Shown: positions 13,593-52,719 of the stretch, piece by piece
How positions within the stretch are numbered: the stretch's first letter is position 1
How the letters are laid out: every line of letters begins with the position of its first letter
NCBI GenBank assembly: GCA_003555025.1
Contig: PWHV01000008.1
Span: forward strand, 1 to 64,000
Length of the DNA: 64,000 bases
Reading direction: 5' to 3'
Source of the DNA: Methanomassiliicoccaceae archaeon
GTDB lineage: Archaea > Thermoplasmatota > Thermoplasmata > Methanomassiliicoccales > Methanomethylophilaceae
Notes under the pieces: generated by a model
The model's input: the letters and a program-made list of their open reading frames with translations, nothing else
Told to the model about the DNA's origin: nothing
Databases searched by the model: none
Translations under genes and position numbers: made by a program

Positions 13593-13640
13593 TCATCATA
13601 CCCCTTCTTCTTATTCCGATCGGAACAATGCTTAGTTCAT

Positions 13641-13648
13641 TTTTTATA
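13641..13648 (+). promoter_or_regulatory. Candidate TATA box of the nitrogenase-like operon
   Basis: TTTTTATA in an AT-rich patch after tRNA-Cys. A start of transcription about 25 nt downstream would fall near 13670, after the first possible ATG (13663) but before the TTG at 13702. This supports the TTG start of the following gene. Confidence 0.45.
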
Positions 13649-13701
13649 CCATCCAGTGCTTAATGCAATGGCTGGATTATCCATCCAACAGGGGATCCGT
13701 T

Positions 13702-15858
13702 TTGCGCATCGCGTTGTATGGGAAAGGAGGCATAGGCAAGTCGACGGTGTCAGCAAATCTGACCGCCGCCCTTGGCCGCATGGGACTGAAGGTGCTGCAG
13801 ATCGGCTGCGACCCCAAGCACGACTCCACCCGTCTCCTCCTGGAGGGGAGGGAGCCCCCCACGGTTATGGAGATGGTGCGCAGCTCCCGCCGCGAGGATA
13901 TGAGTCTGGACAGCATCGTATCCCGGGGATACCTCGGCTGCCTCTGCGTGGAGGCGGGGGGACCCGAGCCGGGGGTCGGCTGCGCCGGCAGGGGCATACT
14001 CTCCACCTTCGAGCTCCTTGACGAGTTGGGGGTGGACTCCCTCGATGCAGACATCACCGTCTACGACGTCCTCGGGGACGTGGTGTGCGGTGGATTCGCC
14101 GTCCCGTTGCGCAACGACTACGCCGAGAAGGTCTACGTGGTGAGCTCCGGCGAGTTCATGTCCATATACGCGGCCAACAACATCCTGCGCGGGGTGAGGA
14201 ACTACGACCCCCGCCGCATGGCCGGCATAATCTTCAACAGCCGCGGCGAGCCGGAGGAGGGGGAGAGGGTGCGGCGCTTCGCCGCCGCCGTCGGCCTCCC
14301 GGTGGTGGCGGAGATACCGCGCTCGCCCCGGTTCCTGGATGCGGAGCGCTCGGGCAGGACGGTGGTGGAGAGCGACCCCGGCGCAGATCTGGCGCAGATA
14401 TTCTTCCGCCTGGCGAGTAACGTGGTCGAGGGCGATGTGATGGAGGCGTCGCCTCTGAGCGACGAGGAGTTGGAGACGGTGGTATTGGGGAAGAGCCCGC
14501 CGCCGCCGATCCGCCGCGGCGGCCAGGAGGAGCCGCCCCCGGAAGGGAGGCGCGAGGCGCCCCCCGCCTACACCTCGCGCAACGTGGAGCGCAAGGAGGT
14601 CCTGCACGGCTGTGCCTTCACGGGGGCGGTGATCACCTGCCTGTCCGTAGAGGGGCTGCAGACGGTCATGCACTCCCCTGACAGCTGCGCCCACCTGTCC
14701 TGTCAGATGGCCCAGAACGCCGCCCGACGGGCATTCGTCAAAGAAGGGGTGGCGATACCCTCCTTCCTGAGGCCGGCGGCGCACTGCAGCTCGCTGGACG
14801 ACCCGGACATGGTCTTCGGCGGCCGTCCCTCTCTGGAGGAGGCTCTGCAGCGCGCCTTCGAGCGAGGCAACGACGTCGCCCTGGTGAGCTCCTGCCCGTC
14901 GGGGATTATCGGCGACGACGTGGAGGAGGCCGCCCGCGCCGTCTCCGCCTCTCGGCCGGAGGGCAGGGTGCTCACCATGCTGGAGGACGGGAACGCCGCC
15001 GGCGACCACATGCAGGGCGTCATCGATGCCTGCGTGGCCCTGGCATCTGGACTCATCGACCCTTCGGCGGAGCCGAGCGACGGCCTGGTGAACGTGGTGG
15101 GCATCAAGCCCATCGCCACCAACAACGAGATGAACATGACCTACGCCGAAGGCATCCTGCGGCGCATGGGGGCGGCCATCAACTGCCGCTTCATCGGCGG
15201 CACCGACATCGCTGGCATAGAAGGGTTCCATCGCGCCCGCCACAGCATCCTGGCCAACACCGACCGCTTCGCCCTCATGCTCTCCCGTTACCTGCGGGAA
15301 GAGCACGGCGCCGAGGTGCTGCGCAGCCCGCTGGCGCCGGGGTTGAGAGGCACTTTGGATTGGCTCGGGGAGCTGGCCGCCGCCACCGACAGGGAGTCCG
15401 CCGCCGAGGAGCTGGCGGCATCTTTGCGGCAGGAGTACGAGGAGGCGCTCCCGCCGTTGCGCCAGGAGCTGCAGGGCCGCAAGGCCTGCATCATCAGTAT
15501 GCACAAGGACATAGACTGGCTCATCGACACCCTCGACGACCTGGGGATCGATCTGCTCTACGCCGCCGTTGTAGACCGCTCCGACCATCTCATGGACTAC
15601 CACGTGGGCAACCGCCACGCTGGACGCATCGTTCTCCTCGAGGATTACGACATGTCCACGGTGGTGACGGACGCCATGTCCCGCGGTCCGGACATCCTGC
15701 TGAGCACCTATCCGGTGAGCACCGACGGCGCGGTGCTGCAGGAGAGGATACCCATGGTCCCCGACATCGGCCACCTGGCCCCTTTGGAGCTGGCGCGGCG
15801 CTGGGCGCTGGGTCTGAAAGCTCCCCGCAGGGAGGGATGGAGGGAGGACCATGGCTGA
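13702..15858 (+). CDS. Nitrogenase-like NifH-NifD fusion protein
   Basis: A 718-residue fusion. Residues 1-265 are a full NifH-like iron protein: P-loop GKGGIGKST (about 7-15) and both cluster cysteines, in EPGVGCAGR (Cys94) and DVVCGGF (Cys129). A Pro/Glu-rich linker (about 265-295) joins a NifD/NifE-like nitrogenase component 1 domain. This keeps the three cluster cysteines seen in NifD: HGCAFTGA (304), PDSCAHLS (329), SSCPSGIIGDD (398). A Cys275 (cofactor) equivalent is not evident. The TTG start has AGGGGA about 8 nt upstream and gives the NifH-like beginning MRIALYGKGG; ATG 13663 is the alternative. It overlaps the NifK-like gene by 8 nt. It resembles methanogen CfbC/CfbD in part, but those are separate proteins. 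ATP-driven reduction of an unknown substrate is inferred. Confidence 0.85.
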   Translation: MRIALYGKGGIGKSTVSANLTAALGRMGLKVLQIGCDPKHDSTRLLLEGREPPTVMEMVRSSRREDMSLDSIVSRGYLGCLCVEAGGPEPGVGCAGRGILSTFELLDELGVDSLDADITVYDVLGDVVCGGFAVPLRNDYAEKVYVVSSGEFMSIYAANNILRGVRNYDPRRMAGIIFNSRGEPEEGERVRRFAAAVGLPVVAEIPRSPRFLDAERSGRTVVESDPGADLAQIFFRLASNVVEGDVMEASPLSDEELETVVLGKSPPPPIRRGGQEEPPPEGRREAPPAYTSRNVERKEVLHGCAFTGAVITCLSVEGLQTVMHSPDSCAHLSCQMAQNAARRAFVKEGVAIPSFLRPAAHCSSLDDPDMVFGGRPSLEEALQRAFERGNDVALVSSCPSGIIGDDVEEAARAVSASRPEGRVLTMLEDGNAAGDHMQGVIDACVALASGLIDPSAEPSDGLVNVVGIKPIATNNEMNMTYAEGILRRMGAAINCRFIGGTDIAGIEGFHRARHSILANTDRFALMLSRYLREEHGAEVLRSPLAPGLRGTLDWLGELAAATDRESAAEELAASLRQEYEEALPPLRQELQGRKACIISMHKDIDWLIDTLDDLGIDLLYAAVVDRSDHLMDYHVGNRHAGRIVLLEDYDMSTVVTDAMSRGPDILLSTYPVSTDGAVLQERIPMVPDIGHLAPLELARRWALGLKAPRREGWREDHG

Positions 15859-17104
15859 GCGCTGCCCGGAGAGCCTGATGGGGGCAATAATGGCCTTCGA
15901 GGGCATGGCGGGATCCATCACCGCCATGAACGGCCCCACCGGATGCAAGTACTACCCCGCGTCCTTCTCGGAGACGGTGACCAGGCGCGGGGGTTTCAAC
16001 CCCATGCTCCACGACACGCTCTTCTATCTGGGCCAGTCAAGGGTCCCCTGCACCTACATGGACAGCAGCGACTACGTGTCCGGGGCGAGGGAGAGGATGC
16101 GGGCGCTATGGGACGACTCGCGGAGCCGCCGGCCGTCGATGTTGGCCCTGATAAACTCCCCCGGAGCCTCCCTGATAGGGGAGATGCTCACCTTCGATGG
16201 CGAGGCGCCGCCGACGGTGGCCATGGAGAGCCCCCCGCCCTCTGCCAGCTTCTCCTCGGGCTACGAGACGGCCATGCTCGCCACGCTCGAAGGCCTGGCG
16301 CCGTCGCCGGCGGAGCCGCGGGAGATGACGGTGAACCTCCTGGGGATATCGGTGGCCGACCTGGGATGGGAGGACAGCATCGCCGACCTCCGCCGCCTCC
16401 TCTCGCTCTGCGGCGTGGAGGTCCTGTGCTCTCCGGGGGCGGGATGGGCGCCCGAGGACGTGCAGCGCTCGGCGGGGGCGGCCTTGAACGTGGCCGTGCA
16501 CGACGAGAGGGCGGCGATGACCTCGGAATGGTACCGTCGCAATCTAAACGTCCCCTTCGTCCGCTGCTCCTCCGGGGCCCCGCTCGGCTTCGAGGCCTTG
16601 GAGGAATGGCTGAAGGAGGTATGCCATGCACTCGAAGCCGACCCCTCGCCCGCCCTCGGGCGCATCGCCGCTTCCCGGCGGCGCGCCCACCGCGAGATAT
16701 CGAGGCTGGACCAGTACGCCGGCCTGCCGCGGGGCTGCAGCTTCTCCCTGGAGGGGCGGCCCTCGTTGGTGTGGCCGGCGCTGCGCAGCATGCACGCCTA
16801 CCTGGGCATGGTGCCGGTGGCGGTCAGCATGACCGAGGACGGCCCCTGCGCCGCAGAGGTCGAGAGCTATCTGCGCAGCATAGGCTGCGGGGAGGCCAGC
16901 ACCTCGGTGCTCGACTGCCCCGCCGACGTGGTGCTCGCCGACGGCAACACCGTCGCCGGCGTCCTCGGCCGCGGGCTGAGCGACTGCGGCGTGGAGCTGG
17001 ACCATCCGTCCCTCACCCCGATCTGCATCCGCGAGGACCCCCTCCTCGGCCTAGGGGGTACGTTGCGCCTGATCGAACGGTCTTTGCAGGGCCTCAAGCG
17101 CTAG
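15851..17104 (+). CDS. Nitrogenase component 1-like protein (NifK/NifN/BchB-like)
   Basis: A 417-residue partner of the fusion protein, in the same operon (8-nt overlap). The N-terminus RCPESLMGAIMAFEGM, then NGPTGCKYYP, matches the first two cluster cysteines of NifK (Cys5 and Cys32 here). At the third cysteine place the motif reads NSPGASLIGE, with Pro or Gly instead of Cys, so a NifK-type P-cluster is unlikely and a simpler [4Fe-4S] cluster shared with the D domain is more plausible. The Rossmann-like repeats of the family follow. It ends with TAG. Together the two genes make an H-D-K set lacking any assembly genes in the window. Confidence 0.78.
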   Translation: MAERCPESLMGAIMAFEGMAGSITAMNGPTGCKYYPASFSETVTRRGGFNPMLHDTLFYLGQSRVPCTYMDSSDYVSGARERMRALWDDSRSRRPSMLALINSPGASLIGEMLTFDGEAPPTVAMESPPPSASFSSGYETAMLATLEGLAPSPAEPREMTVNLLGISVADLGWEDSIADLRRLLSLCGVEVLCSPGAGWAPEDVQRSAGAALNVAVHDERAAMTSEWYRRNLNVPFVRCSSGAPLGFEALEEWLKEVCHALEADPSPALGRIAASRRRAHREISRLDQYAGLPRGCSFSLEGRPSLVWPALRSMHAYLGMVPVAVSMTEDGPCAAEVESYLRSIGCGEASTSVLDCPADVVLADGNTVAGVLGRGLSDCGVELDHPSLTPICIREDPLLGLGGTLRLIERSLQGLKR

Positions 17105-32593: not shown

Positions 32594-32648
32594 GCCGGAT
32601 GAAGAGAAACCATGCTGAGCGGTGATGAGCCCTATGAGTGCTGACGGC
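32594..32648 (+). ncRNA. Candidate C/D-box guide sRNA
   Basis: The gap between the LysE-type and hjc genes holds the pattern of an archaeal C/D sRNA. C box CGGATGA (32596-32602, core GATGA kept), 12-nt spacer (32603-32614), D' box CTGA (32615-32618), 3 nt, C' box GTGATGA (32622-32628, perfect), 12-nt spacer (32629-32640), D box CTGA (32641-32644). Short flanks GCCG and CGGC can pair. Both spacers are exactly 12 nt, the usual guide length. A TATA-like GCTTTAATC lies about 30 nt upstream. The weak first two bases of the C box lower confidence. Targets would be rRNA or tRNA 2'-O-methyl sites. Confidence 0.55.
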
Positions 32649-48870: not shown

Positions 48871-49989
48871 TCACCAGTCCCCGTAGCGGCCATGGTCCTC
48901 GGCCGCCCTCACCAGGGCCAGTATGTTCCCCGGCGGCGAATAGGGCGGCACCTCGCAGCTCGTTCCCAGTATGAACCCCTTGGGGCTGTCCCTTCCGTCG
49001 ACGATCTGCCGCGCCGCCTCGTCGTAGATCGCCTTGGGGTTGGGCATGGTGAACCGCTTGGTGTCCACCGACGGCATGATCGTCGCCTTGTCCCCGAACA
49101 TGGCCTTCATCTCCTCGGCGGGATAGACCTCCCGCCCCTTGTAGCCCACGTGGACGATGGTCAGCGGCGAATAGATTATGCGGTTTTCGAAGAGGTGGAG
49201 GTCGGCGTCGTGGTTGCCGCAGAAGTGATAGAATACCTGGGGGCCGGCGCCGCGGGTGAAGGCCTGTCTAACGAGGTACTCCAGATTGTCGGCGGACACC
49301 TTCTCTATGGTCTCGGGGGGCATAATGTCGCTGTTGGCGAGCACCGAGCCGGTGGTGAGCAGGGCCATGCCGTAGGTCTTGGCCATCGCCTCGGCGCCGG
49401 CGACGGCGGTGTCGGTGTACTTGCGCACCAGCTTGAGAGCGAGGTCGAGGTCGGTGAGGGTCCACATCAGGAACTCCTCTATGCCTGCCAGACCGGCCGC
49501 CGACCCCTCGGGCTCGGGGCAGGGTGAGATGGGGACGAACATCTCCGGCAGCTTCTCCTTGATGTAATCGTAGGCGCCGCTGAGCTGCCTGAAGGTGAAC
49601 ATGTCCTTGATTCCTTCAGCATCGGGGACCTCGAGGTTGTCGACGTCCTCGGGGCCGTGCACCACGGGGCCCTCCGGCACCGGCGGGGTGAGGTCCATGA
49701 ACTTGAGCTTGGTGCCCAGCTCTGACATCCACGGGTGGGCGAAGTAGTACTTGGTGACCGGCAGAAGGTCGTAGAGCTGCTGCACATAGGCCAGGCAATG
49801 CGCCCCCAGCTTCGGCCTCTCGTAGAAGTCCCGTATGCTGTGACCGCAGGCCACGGTGGAGTGGGAGAGCATCATGGGGTCCACCGGCACGTGGTCCGCC
49901 TCCCCGCCCAGCACGGCGGCGGCGTACCGCCTTCTGGCGTTCGCCTGCCAATCCTTGTCGGTCGGCGGGAAGAGCTCGGAGACGTCCAT
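48871..49989 (-). CDS. UroD/MtaA-family cobalamin-dependent methyltransferase
   Basis: A 372-residue member of the uroporphyrinogen decarboxylase superfamily. The zinc-site pattern of methylcobamide:CoM methyltransferases (MtaA, MtbA) is seen: His-x-Cys in FYHFCGNHDADL and a later Cys in LGTSCEVPPYSPPGN. UroD proper lacks these. So it likely moves a methyl group from a corrinoid to a thiol such as coenzyme M. No substrate-specific partner or corrinoid protein is adjacent. It diverges from cobyric acid synthase, 100 nt away. Confidence 0.75.
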   Translation of the reverse strand: MDVSELFPPTDKDWQANARRRYAAAVLGGEADHVPVDPMMLSHSTVACGHSIRDFYERPKLGAHCLAYVQQLYDLLPVTKYYFAHPWMSELGTKLKFMDLTPPVPEGPVVHGPEDVDNLEVPDAEGIKDMFTFRQLSGAYDYIKEKLPEMFVPISPCPEPEGSAAGLAGIEEFLMWTLTDLDLALKLVRKYTDTAVAGAEAMAKTYGMALLTTGSVLANSDIMPPETIEKVSADNLEYLVRQAFTRGAGPQVFYHFCGNHDADLHLFENRIIYSPLTIVHVGYKGREVYPAEEMKAMFGDKATIMPSVDTKRFTMPNPKAIYDEAARQIVDGRDSPKGFILGTSCEVPPYSPPGNILALVRAAEDHGRYGDW

Positions 49990-50089
49990 GGACAGGCAAT
50001 GTCGGTGGCGCTAAATAGATTTGTCCGGGAAAGGTTCTTTATCCGCGTTCAGCATTGGTGTTGGATAATACATCCATCCGAGGTATGTC

Positions 50090-51892
50090 ATGCAATGGGT
50101 GAAGGAAGAGGTCCGTGATGAGCTCAAGAGCGGGCACAGGGGGCCGGACGAGAGCTGCCAGTACCACCCCTGCCACTTCGACGGGCAGGACTGCAGCTGG
50201 TGCTTCTGCCCCTTCTACCCGTGCCACAGGCCGGAGCTGGGGGCGACGGTGGTGTCCAAGCGCAGCGGCGAGCCGGTCTGGAGCTGCGTGGACTGCGAGT
50301 TCCTCCATCGTCAGGACGTGTCCCGCGCCGCGCGGGAGCTGATCCGCGGCGAGGGCATCGAGGACCCTGACGACCCCCGTTTGGCGGGAATCTTCGATGA
50401 GCTCATTGCGCGATTCAACACCCGTGCCAAAGCGTTGATGGTGCTGGGGGCGACCTCGGACGCCGGCAAGTCCATCGTGGCCACCGCGCTGTGCCGGGTG
50501 CTGTCCGACATGGGTTACGCGGTGGCGCCGTTCAAGTCGCAGAACATGAGCCTGAACTCCTTCGTCACCCATGGCGGCGACGAGATATCCCGGGCGCAGC
50601 ACCTGCAGGCGTTGGCGGCGAGGATGGAGCCCGACCATCACGTCAACCCCATCCTGCTCAAGCCCAAGGGCGACGCCGTGTCGCAGGTGGTGGTGGAGGG
50701 AAGGCCCTACGCGGACCATGACGTGCGCTCCTATTACGAGGAGTTCGTACCTGGCGAGGGCACGGCGGTGATGAGGCGGAACATCGAGTACCTGATGCGC
50801 AAGAACGATTACGTGGTCATGGAGGGCGCGGGCTCGCCGGCGGAGATCAACATCTACCACTGCGACATCGCCAACATGGGCGCCGCCAAGGCCGCCGGCG
50901 CCGACTGCATCCTAGTGGTGAACATCGAGAAGGGCGGCGCCTTCGCCTACGCTTACGGGACGATCATGCTGATGCCGGAGGAGGACAGATCCATGGTGAA
51001 GGGGATATTGATCAACAACATGCGCGGCGACGCGTCCTGCCTCGACGAGGGCATCAAGGAGCTGGAGGGCCGGCTGGGCGTGCCGGTGCTGGGAGTGCTC
51101 CCGCATTTGGACCTGAAGCTCCCCAAGGAGGACTCGCTGGGATGCCGGGACATCGACGGCGAGGGGGCGGTGGTGGCGGTGATACGGCTGCCGCGCCTGT
51201 CCAACTTCACCGACTTCGACGCGTTGGAGCTAGAAGGGGCCAACGTCCGCTTCGTGGATGACCCCGCCGAGCTGTCCGACGCCGACATGGCGGTCATCCC
51301 GGGGAGCAAGAACACCATCGGGGACCTGGAGTGGCTGAAGGGCAAGGGGTTCCCGGAGAAGCTGCGGGAGCTCAAGGGCAAGGTGCCCATCCTGGGCATC
51401 TGCGGCGGCTACCAGATGATGGGCGACCGCATCGACGACCCTCTGGCGGTGGAGGGCCCGGCGCCCTCTTCCACGGAGGGGATAGGACTGCTGCGCCTGT
51501 CCACGGTCTTCGACAGCCGGGAGAAGAGCACGGTGCAGGTGGAGGGCGAGGCCCCCGGAGGCGGCCGACTGCGCGGCTACGAGATACACATGGGCCGCAG
51601 CGACCGCCACGGCCATGCGCCGCTCTTCCGCCTCAAGAACGGCGACGGATGGAGGGACGAGGGCTGCCTCGACGAGGAGATGATGTTGATGGGGAGCTAC
51701 GTACACGGGCTCTTCGACCTCCCCGCCTTCCGCGCCTTCGCGCTGTCCATGGCGGGGAAGGGGCCGAAGGACGGGGAGGGGGATGACCACGATGACAGCG
51801 TGGAGGAGGGCCTCGACCGCCTGGCGGAGGCTTTCCGCGCCGCCGTCGACGAGGACGCTCTGTTGGGGGGCATGCTGGGGGCGCTGCGATGA
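50090..51892 (+). CDS. cobQ: Cobyric acid synthase with N-terminal Cys-rich domain
   Basis: Amidates the corrin ring (four side chains) in cobamide synthesis. Residues 20-75 are a cysteine-rich small domain (DESCQYHPC, DCSWCFCPFYPC, WSCVDCEF) that probably binds metal. The ATPase domain starts LMVLGATSDAGKSIVATAL, then QNMSLNSF and NPILLKPKGD. The class I glutaminase domain has the catalytic Cys in LGICGGYQMMG and His in GSYVHGLFD. 600 residues, longer than usual because of the extra domain. TATA-like GGATAATACA lies about 22 nt upstream. A CobQ-like ATPase gene overlaps its end (ATGA). Confidence 0.93.
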   Translation: MQWVKEEVRDELKSGHRGPDESCQYHPCHFDGQDCSWCFCPFYPCHRPELGATVVSKRSGEPVWSCVDCEFLHRQDVSRAARELIRGEGIEDPDDPRLAGIFDELIARFNTRAKALMVLGATSDAGKSIVATALCRVLSDMGYAVAPFKSQNMSLNSFVTHGGDEISRAQHLQALAARMEPDHHVNPILLKPKGDAVSQVVVEGRPYADHDVRSYYEEFVPGEGTAVMRRNIEYLMRKNDYVVMEGAGSPAEINIYHCDIANMGAAKAAGADCILVVNIEKGGAFAYAYGTIMLMPEEDRSMVKGILINNMRGDASCLDEGIKELEGRLGVPVLGVLPHLDLKLPKEDSLGCRDIDGEGAVVAVIRLPRLSNFTDFDALELEGANVRFVDDPAELSDADMAVIPGSKNTIGDLEWLKGKGFPEKLRELKGKVPILGICGGYQMMGDRIDDPLAVEGPAPSSTEGIGLLRLSTVFDSREKSTVQVEGEAPGGGRLRGYEIHMGRSDRHGHAPLFRLKNGDGWRDEGCLDEEMMLMGSYVHGLFDLPAFRAFALSMAGKGPKDGEGDDHDDSVEEGLDRLAEAFRAAVDEDALLGGMLGALR

Positions 51893-52719
51893 GCTCGCTG
51901 ATGATGGTGGGGGCCAGCTCGGCGGCGGGCAAGAGCACCGTCTGCGCCATGCTCTGCCGCCTGATGAGGCGCCGCGGCATGGATGTGGTGCCGTACAAGA
52001 CCCTGAACCTCTCCTTGAACTCGTTCGTCGACCACGACGGCGGGGAGATGGGCATGTCGCAGGCATTTCAGGCCTGGGCCTGCGGCCTGGAGCCCGATTG
52101 CCGCATGAACCCGGTCCTCATCAAGCCCCATGCGGAGGGGAGGATGCAGACCGTTATCGCCGGACGCGTTGCTGACGGGAGCGGGCTGCGGGAACGGGCG
52201 TTCGCCGAGGCCATGGGATGCTTCCGCTCCCTCTCCGACGAGCATGAGCACATCGTCGTCGAGGGCTCTGGCTCGGCGGCGGAGATAAACCTCCGCCACA
52301 GCGACATCGCCAACATGCGCACCGCCCGCGCCACCGCCTCGCCGGTGGTGATCGTCGGCGACATCGACTCCGGCGGGGTGTTCGCCGGCATCTATGGCAC
52401 GTACATGCTCCTGCCCGAGGAGGACCGTGCCCTGGTGAAGGGTTTCATCATAAACCGGTTCCGCGGCGACGCCTCCATACTGGATGCTGCGCTTCGTCGC
52501 ATCGAGGAGGAGACGGGCATGCGCTGTTTCGGCGTGATGCCCTACCTGCCTTTCCGGCTACCCAGTGAGGACTCCCTCGACATGGGGGCGCCGGGCGAGC
52601 TGGAGGGCGAGGACGTCCGGGGGGCGTGGATGGACAACCTCGACCGCCTCGCCGACGAGGCGGAACGATCGCTGGACGTTGACGGCCTCCTATCACTCAT
52701 GAAGGACTCAACCGCCTGA
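51889..52719 (+). CDS. CobQ-like ATPase domain protein without glutaminase
   Basis: A 276-residue paralogue of the first half of CobQ. P-loop VGASSAAGKSTVCAML, TLNLSLNSFVDHDGGEMG, RMNPVLIKP, VEGSGSAAEINLRHSDIANM and GDIDSGGVFAGIYGTY all match. The glutamine amidotransferase half is absent and the gene ends normally, so this is not a random cut. It is translationally coupled to full-length cobQ. It might borrow the CobQ glutaminase, use free ammonia, or act on another corrinoid or tetrapyrrole carboxylate. Function unknown. Confidence 0.75.
   Translation: MSSLMMVGASSAAGKSTVCAMLCRLMRRRGMDVVPYKTLNLSLNSFVDHDGGEMGMSQAFQAWACGLEPDCRMNPVLIKPHAEGRMQTVIAGRVADGSGLRERAFAEAMGCFRSLSDEHEHIVVEGSGSAAEINLRHSDIANMRTARATASPVVIVGDIDSGGVFAGIYGTYMLLPEEDRALVKGFIINRFRGDASILDAALRRIEEETGMRCFGVMPYLPFRLPSEDSLDMGAPGELEGEDVRGAWMDNLDRLADEAERSLDVDGLLSLMKDSTA

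Follow-up and report, generated by a model that had tools for sequence, protein, structure and literature searches.

What does a nitrogenase-like enzyme reduce when its iron protein is fused to its catalytic half? This question is raised by a 64,000-nucleotide stretch of DNA from a Methanomassiliicoccaceae archaeon (the window; contig PWHV01000008.1 of assembly GCA_003555025.1, positions 1 to 64,000 of the forward strand), which lies within contig C27 of a draft genome (G000; 1.41 Mb, 36 contigs, 97% complete). In the window, a gene joining a NifH-like (H) to a NifD/E-like (D) domain is followed by a NifK/N-like (K) gene, a system referred to here as HD-K. Its best explanation is an ATP-dependent nitrogenase-like reductase whose substrate would be a tetrapyrrole, most probably a corrinoid or a related macrocycle in salvage or remodelling. 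HD-K is assigned to a tetrapyrrole/corrinoid programme because of its co-occurrence with the CobN-type chelatase, its gene neighbourhoods and a common operator. NifH-NifE fusion proteins have been on record since 2012 with no assigned function, and the role of archaeal CobN/ChlH-type chelatases has been called unclear (PMC12583661) or described as speculative salvage (PMC8305020). Co-occurrence and operator join these two questions into one testable system in the Methanomassiliicoccales, a methanogen order found in animal guts.

The fused gene and its predicted cluster ligands

The open frame at 13663-15858 (+ strand, 731 codons) holds full NifH-like and NifD/E-like (nitrogenase component 1) domains. 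Pfam assigned residues 15-274 of this frame to PF00142 (NifH, 300 bits) and residues 317-684 to PF00148 (173 bits). TTG 13702 is the best supported start, because the ATG of relatives aligns there, no earlier ATG is available in the relative L008 and a TATA box is only about 55 nt away on the 5′ side. The fused gene would then span 13702..15858 (+) and encode 718 amino acids, the upstream ATG at 13663 being less likely. The TATA-box-like element (TTTTTTATA; 13640..13648, +), a presumed promoter element, is conserved in this upstream position among members of the window clade (the window itself, L008, L009 and L011-L013).

The H domain (13705..14484, +) carries the P-loop and both cluster cysteines of an iron protein (codons 13981 and 14086; C94 and C129 of the alignment), all conserved among relatives. 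A Pro/Glu-rich linker of about 38 residues (14485..14598, +) leads to the D domain (14599..15855, +), with cluster cysteines at codons 14611, 14686 and 14893 and no cofactor cysteine. The distance from the P-loop to the first D cysteine is near-constant (285-312 residues, median 297, 68 measured). The K gene (15851..17104, +; PF00148, 115 bits) overlaps the fused gene by 8 nt (15851-15858) and has its family-conserved cluster cysteine at codon 15944. At the fused loci of the order, K directly follows HD wherever the contig continues.

HD-K is present in 91 of the 147 Methanomassiliicoccales genomes surveyed (calls are approximate where a genome is incomplete), often as several paralogues and with up to eight matches per genome. 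No HD-K fusion was seen in 390 genomes sampled from the rest of the phylum; the fused proteins compared here come from within this phylum. The fragmentation of the draft genome might suggest an assembly or binning artefact. However, full-length fusions occur on seven other contigs of metagenome-assembled genomes (52-85% best-segment identity), the same architecture recurs in complete genomes of a single contig and in dozens more, and the window-clade locus is syntenic across three genera. Moreover, purifying selection acts on every part of HD-K: the ratios of nonsynonymous to synonymous substitution rates (dN/dS) between the window and L008 were 0.18 for H, 0.25 for D and 0.19 for K, and 0.57 for the weakly constrained linker. 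Because HD-K recurs across the order, often as paralogues and under purifying selection, the probability of an artefact is negligible. The fusion is confirmed as real, neither chance nor frameshift. A preliminary description, made from the sequence of the window, had proposed a one-frame H-D fusion with intact P-loop and cluster cysteines and an overlapping K-like gene, to be checked for an assembly frameshift; Pfam domains, conservation and recurrence bear it out in these points.

One in-frame TAG each was present in the HD genes of L058, L092, L103, L106, L113, L125 and L135, as expected in pyrrolysine-decoding archaea. A comparison of these codons for a common position, which might mark a pyrrolysine site, revealed scattered positions, none of them shared.

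Ligand columns were counted over 113 D domains and 104 K proteins. The D cysteines were conserved in 108, 113 and 113 of the D domains, and the single K cysteine in 103 of the K proteins, while the K columns for the first and third P-cluster cysteines held Asp/Glu and Pro. NifHDK has six P-cluster cysteines, three per subunit; D retains three of its three and K one of three. The cofactor cysteine common to NifD, NifE and MarD (NifD Cys275 column) was a cysteine in 0/113 D domains, and the column of His442, a ligand of the iron-molybdenum (FeMo) cofactor, was mostly Val or Ile. This ligand set predicts a NifEN-type bridging [4Fe-4S] cluster, with neither a P-cluster nor a large cofactor, and agrees with the earlier judgement that HD-K is unlikely to hold FeMo-cofactor. 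That judgement had invoked the absence of nifE, nifN and nifB nearby. None of the three is near, and the PF00148 matches in the genome are D, K and CfbD only, which leaves no nifE or nifN genome-wide. The nifB argument fell away, since NifB is encoded elsewhere in the genome (G000:C7:131839-133020) and is too widespread to be informative: almost every Methanomassiliicoccales genome keeps it, including those without nitrogenase or HD-K. For the same reason the presence of NifB was dismissed as evidence for a large cofactor.

HD-K might nevertheless hold a NifB-derived large Fe-S cofactor and reduce a small molecule or a C-S bond, as methylthio-alkane reductase does. NifB is at hand in the genome, the best solved relative of D is a methylthio-alkane reductase, and cysK, cysE and cysS downstream hint at sulfur metabolism; Dos Santos 2012 described cysteine synthase beside Cys275-bearing relatives (PMC3464626). 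In contrast, the missing cofactor cysteine, the lack of P-cluster cysteines in K, the occurrence of NifB in genomes without HD-K, and the restriction of the cysteine genes to the window clade, with another context elsewhere, make this explanation quite improbable.

In phylogenetic trees, the H domains of the fusions grouped together, apart from CfbC, NifH, MarH and BchL (support 90), and the K proteins formed one group (support 94). The D-domain tree, with its long outgroup branches, does not resolve placement. Scores against family models placed HD-K outside dark-operative protochlorophyllide oxidoreductase (DPOR) and chlorophyllide oxidoreductase (COR), with 196 bits for BchL (cut-off 345) and 33 bits for BchB (cut-off 490). 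Comparison with the MarD proteins of L155 and L156 showed that MarD Cys270 and the P-cluster set of methylthio-alkane reductase are missing. What HD-K does share is the pattern of the fused NifH-NifE family, namely NifH and a NifD/E-like domain in one frame, a NifN/K-like gene next to it and no cofactor ligands. The CfbC model gave the best NCBIfam score of the H domain (317 bits), as might be expected of a paralogue of the F430 enzyme CfbCD or of another methanogenesis enzyme. Yet this score stays below the cut-off of 402, the genome encodes separate CfbC and CfbD proteins (contig C24), CfbD works without a distinct K partner whereas the K of HD-K forms a distinct clade, and the operator discussed below was not found in the stretch around the cfb genes (L048). 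We regard such a paralogue as very improbable, which upholds the earlier claim that HD-K is not CfbC/CfbD.

Association with CobN, a common operator and importers

Across the 147 genomes, HD-K and the CobN-type chelatase (PF02514) were both present in 81 and both absent in 53, with 10 genomes holding only HD-K and 3 only CobN (Fisher p = 7e-26). Genomes at least 90% complete gave the same picture (41 both, 30 neither, 5 HD-K only, 0 CobN only). A stratified analysis revealed an excess of co-occurrence within genera (z = 6.2; ten genera vary). HD-K and CobN are gained and lost together across the order. As a control we used CbiZ, which as such is found nearly everywhere; its link to HD-K is far weaker (p = 0.008, near-complete genomes), and additional copies of CbiZ go along with HD-K and CobN. 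In the genus of the window HD-K and CobN co-occur although they lie apart in the genome. In the window's genome a single chlI-chlD-cobN operon lies on a contig other than C27, and its CobN clears the threshold of TIGR02257, the cobaltochelatase CobN model (953 vs 822 bits).

An inverted repeat, TGGAT-N5-ATCCA, lies between the TATA box and the fused gene, close to both (13673..13687, no strand assigned). This putative operator, probably the site of a regulator, is conserved in the window clade. It was found in exact form in 34 of the 111 distinct HD upstream regions, whereas 29 alternative arms with identical composition scored 0 each and other spacings almost none; its chance expectation is 0.04 per 64 kb. 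The only other copy in the window (50062..50076, no strand assigned) ends 13 nt before the start codon of cobQ (50090..51892, +), which encodes a cobyric acid synthase with an N-terminal Cys-rich domain (NF001989, 541 bits, cut-off 273; TIGR00313, 490 bits) and is a putative member of the regulon. Elsewhere in the genome a copy occupies the intergenic region 5′ of chlI-chlD-cobN (L178 2438), as it does in five relatives (L180-L184), and in other members the operator precedes CobN, substrate-binding protein and FecCD genes. It was absent from the stretch around nifB (L047) and from the dtxR/feoAB genes in the window.

Two further genes adjoin cobQ. A short second CobQ-like protein, consisting of the ATPase half only (51889..52719, +), overlaps cobQ, and a URO-D domain protein of a methyltransferase-type family (48874-49989) diverges from cobQ, with the operator in the common intergenic region. 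An Rfam search of the window found no riboswitch; a C/D-box small RNA (sR41, RF01126) matched at 32595-32646, just above the gathering score.

Within 8.5 kb of 116 fused loci we counted FecCD at 52, CobN at 15, ChlI/D at 8 and CbiZ at 7, and binding proteins at others. Substrate-binding protein, FecCD, CbiZ, ChlI/D, HD-K and CobN stand side by side in L064, L065 and L077. In seven complete genomes, 10 of 13 HD genes had a FecCD gene at most 7.5 kb away against 1.2 expected from random shifts, and CobN proximity alone was not significant up to 10 kb (both with approximate positions and among the matches listed). As some genomes hold HD-K and CobN in one cluster, co-occurrence and neighbourhood are partly dependent lines of evidence.

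Several observations weigh against a role in corrinoid metabolism. No tetrapyrrole genes flank the window locus itself, which has tRNA-Cys, TBP, cysK, cysE and cysS as conserved neighbours, a genus-wide pattern. Five near-complete genomes (G014, G016, G057, G072 and G116) contain HD-K without CobN, and archaea using the early-cobalt pathway need no CobN for synthesis. The exact operator precedes only about 30% of HD genes, and in some genomes a divergent DUF2769 gene (L178 1909-2304) lies across the chlI-chlD-cobN operator and may be its target instead or as well. A regulon responding to metal limitation would explain the co-regulation with importers equally well. Finally, AlphaFold models built from six-sequence alignments (mean predicted local distance difference test score 68.6 for HD and 48.7 for K) are too weak for a reading of the active site or the D/K cavity; the Foldseek matches listed were Fe proteins only.

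Proposed reaction of HD-K

Taken as a class, and including those alternatives that retain it, a tetrapyrrole is the likely substrate of HD-K. The preliminary description had left the substrate of a different reductase open; the reductase does differ from CfbC/CfbD, and CobN co-occurrence, neighbourhoods and operator now narrow the substrate to a tetrapyrrole or corrinoid. The characterised family members without a large cofactor, DPOR, COR and CfbCD, all reduce tetrapyrroles (PMC7242693), and for this reason reduction of the ring was our first guess. That HD-K reduces a ring double bond is favoured over reduction of a corrin-bound metal, with a confidence that falls somewhat short of even.

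In the mechanism we propose, the H domains of two HD chains would pair to form an Fe protein that carries a single [4Fe-4S] cluster. Driven by ATP hydrolysis, single electrons would enter the [4Fe-4S] cluster held by three D and one K cysteines and, as in DPOR, COR and CfbCD, pass from there to the substrate in the D/K cavity. HD-K would belong to the same programme as a class-I chelatase (ChlI-ChlD-CobN) and CobQ, to which many relatives may add a FecCD-type importer and CbiZ. If closed within the complex, the tether would leave each D2K2 unit with a single H dimer; as the preliminary description supposed, a fixed link may also alter the docking cycle. Such a permanently attached iron protein would lend itself to testing to what extent catalysis of the nitrogenase type is limited by the need of the Fe protein to dock and undock. 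The most specific version of this proposal is correspondingly tentative and rather unlikely to hold in all its parts: an ATP-driven corrinoid reductase, a new reaction for the nitrogenase family, would form with a CobN-type chelatase and CobQ an archaeal route of corrin salvage or remodelling, its one H dimer per D2K2 serving the halves in turn.

A variant within the tetrapyrrole class is that HD-K reduces the cobalt of a corrin from Co(II) to Co(I) for adenosylation. In the aerobic pathway this step, situated between CobN and CobQ, is carried out by the flavin-dependent CobR, and the operator set of the window's genome (HD-K, chlI-chlD-cobN and cobQ) flanks exactly this step (PMC7242693), which makes metal reduction a serious rival. 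ATP-dependent Co(II) reduction is known for unrelated activating enzymes (PMC6739815). In contrast, reduction of corrin cobalt is not known from any enzyme of the nitrogenase family, and up to eight paralogues per genome suggest several substrates and not one housekeeping step. We consider a cobalt reductase possible but doubtful.

The abundance of FecCD importers and binding proteins, the commonest neighbours and joined to HD-K by the operator, also fits metal acquisition. Imported metallo-tetrapyrroles would here be reductively demetallated together with a dechelatase of the CobN superfamily, just as HmuS, a CobN relative with archaeal relatives of no known role, removes iron from heme (PMC12583661). 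However, CobQ and CbiZ are corrinoid enzymes and not iron genes, the CobN of the window's genome scores as a cobaltochelatase, and dtxR/feoAB in the window lack the operator. Metal acquisition is thus unlikely.

Comparison with known nitrogenase-like systems

According to the preliminary description, the iron protein of these systems is known only as a separate component. Earlier reports contradict this: nifH-nifE fusions followed by nifN-like genes were described in Archaea, Firmicutes and Deltaproteobacteria (Dos Santos 2012; PMC3464626), a 'fused nifH/nifE' in Methanomassiliicoccales ('Ca. M. intestinalis'; Borrel et al. 2014; PMC4153887) and a NifH-NifD/E fusion in Methanomassiliicoccales as cluster 443 of a 2024 survey of archaeal fusions (PMC11237513). 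HD-K resembles the reported fusions in gene architecture, archaeal order and absence of FeMo-cofactor ligands. The architecture is therefore already on record. In their accessible text these three accounts name the fusion and assign it no function, and the link to CobN, CobQ, importers and the operator is absent from it.

Like the maturase NifEN, HD-K has three cysteines in the alpha-type and one in the beta-type subunit. NifE, however, retains the cofactor cysteine that the D domain lacks, and the window's genome offers no nifDK partner. A full nifHDKEN set is present in another member of the order (G031, L171). MarHDK is the sequence-closest solved relative of the D domain (9fmg), but in Mar a P-cluster is accompanied by an [Fe8S9C] cluster with Cys270 (PMC12552129), and both ligand sets are missing in HD-K. 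One genome (G015) combines two HD-K systems with a methylthio-alkane-reductase-like HDK, two clusters of the nitrogenase type and an additional Nfl set (L174 4210-8177, L172 and L173).

CfbC/CfbD shares with HD-K the setting of a methanogen and, presumably, the use of a NifH-like reductase on a tetrapyrrole, but is encoded by separate genes elsewhere in the window's genome and has no K partner. DPOR and COR (BchLNB, BchXYZ) are alike in their H-, D- and K-type subunits and operons with a CobN/ChlH-type chelatase and, as presumed for HD-K, in their ATP dependence, bridging [4Fe-4S]-type site and tetrapyrrole chemistry. They differ in that their iron protein is separate and that the B subunit of DPOR lacks the cysteine kept by the K of HD-K. 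NflHDK of Treponema saccharophilum pTS1 (L159) consists of three separate genes and matches only weakly in sequence, yet it is likewise an H/D/K set of the no-cofactor type beside a FecCD-type iron ATP-binding cassette importer. A split nitrogenase-like pair in G073 (L176 5152-7493) resembles this Treponema set (L159 4913-8086), and a FecCD importer and a binding protein adjoin both.

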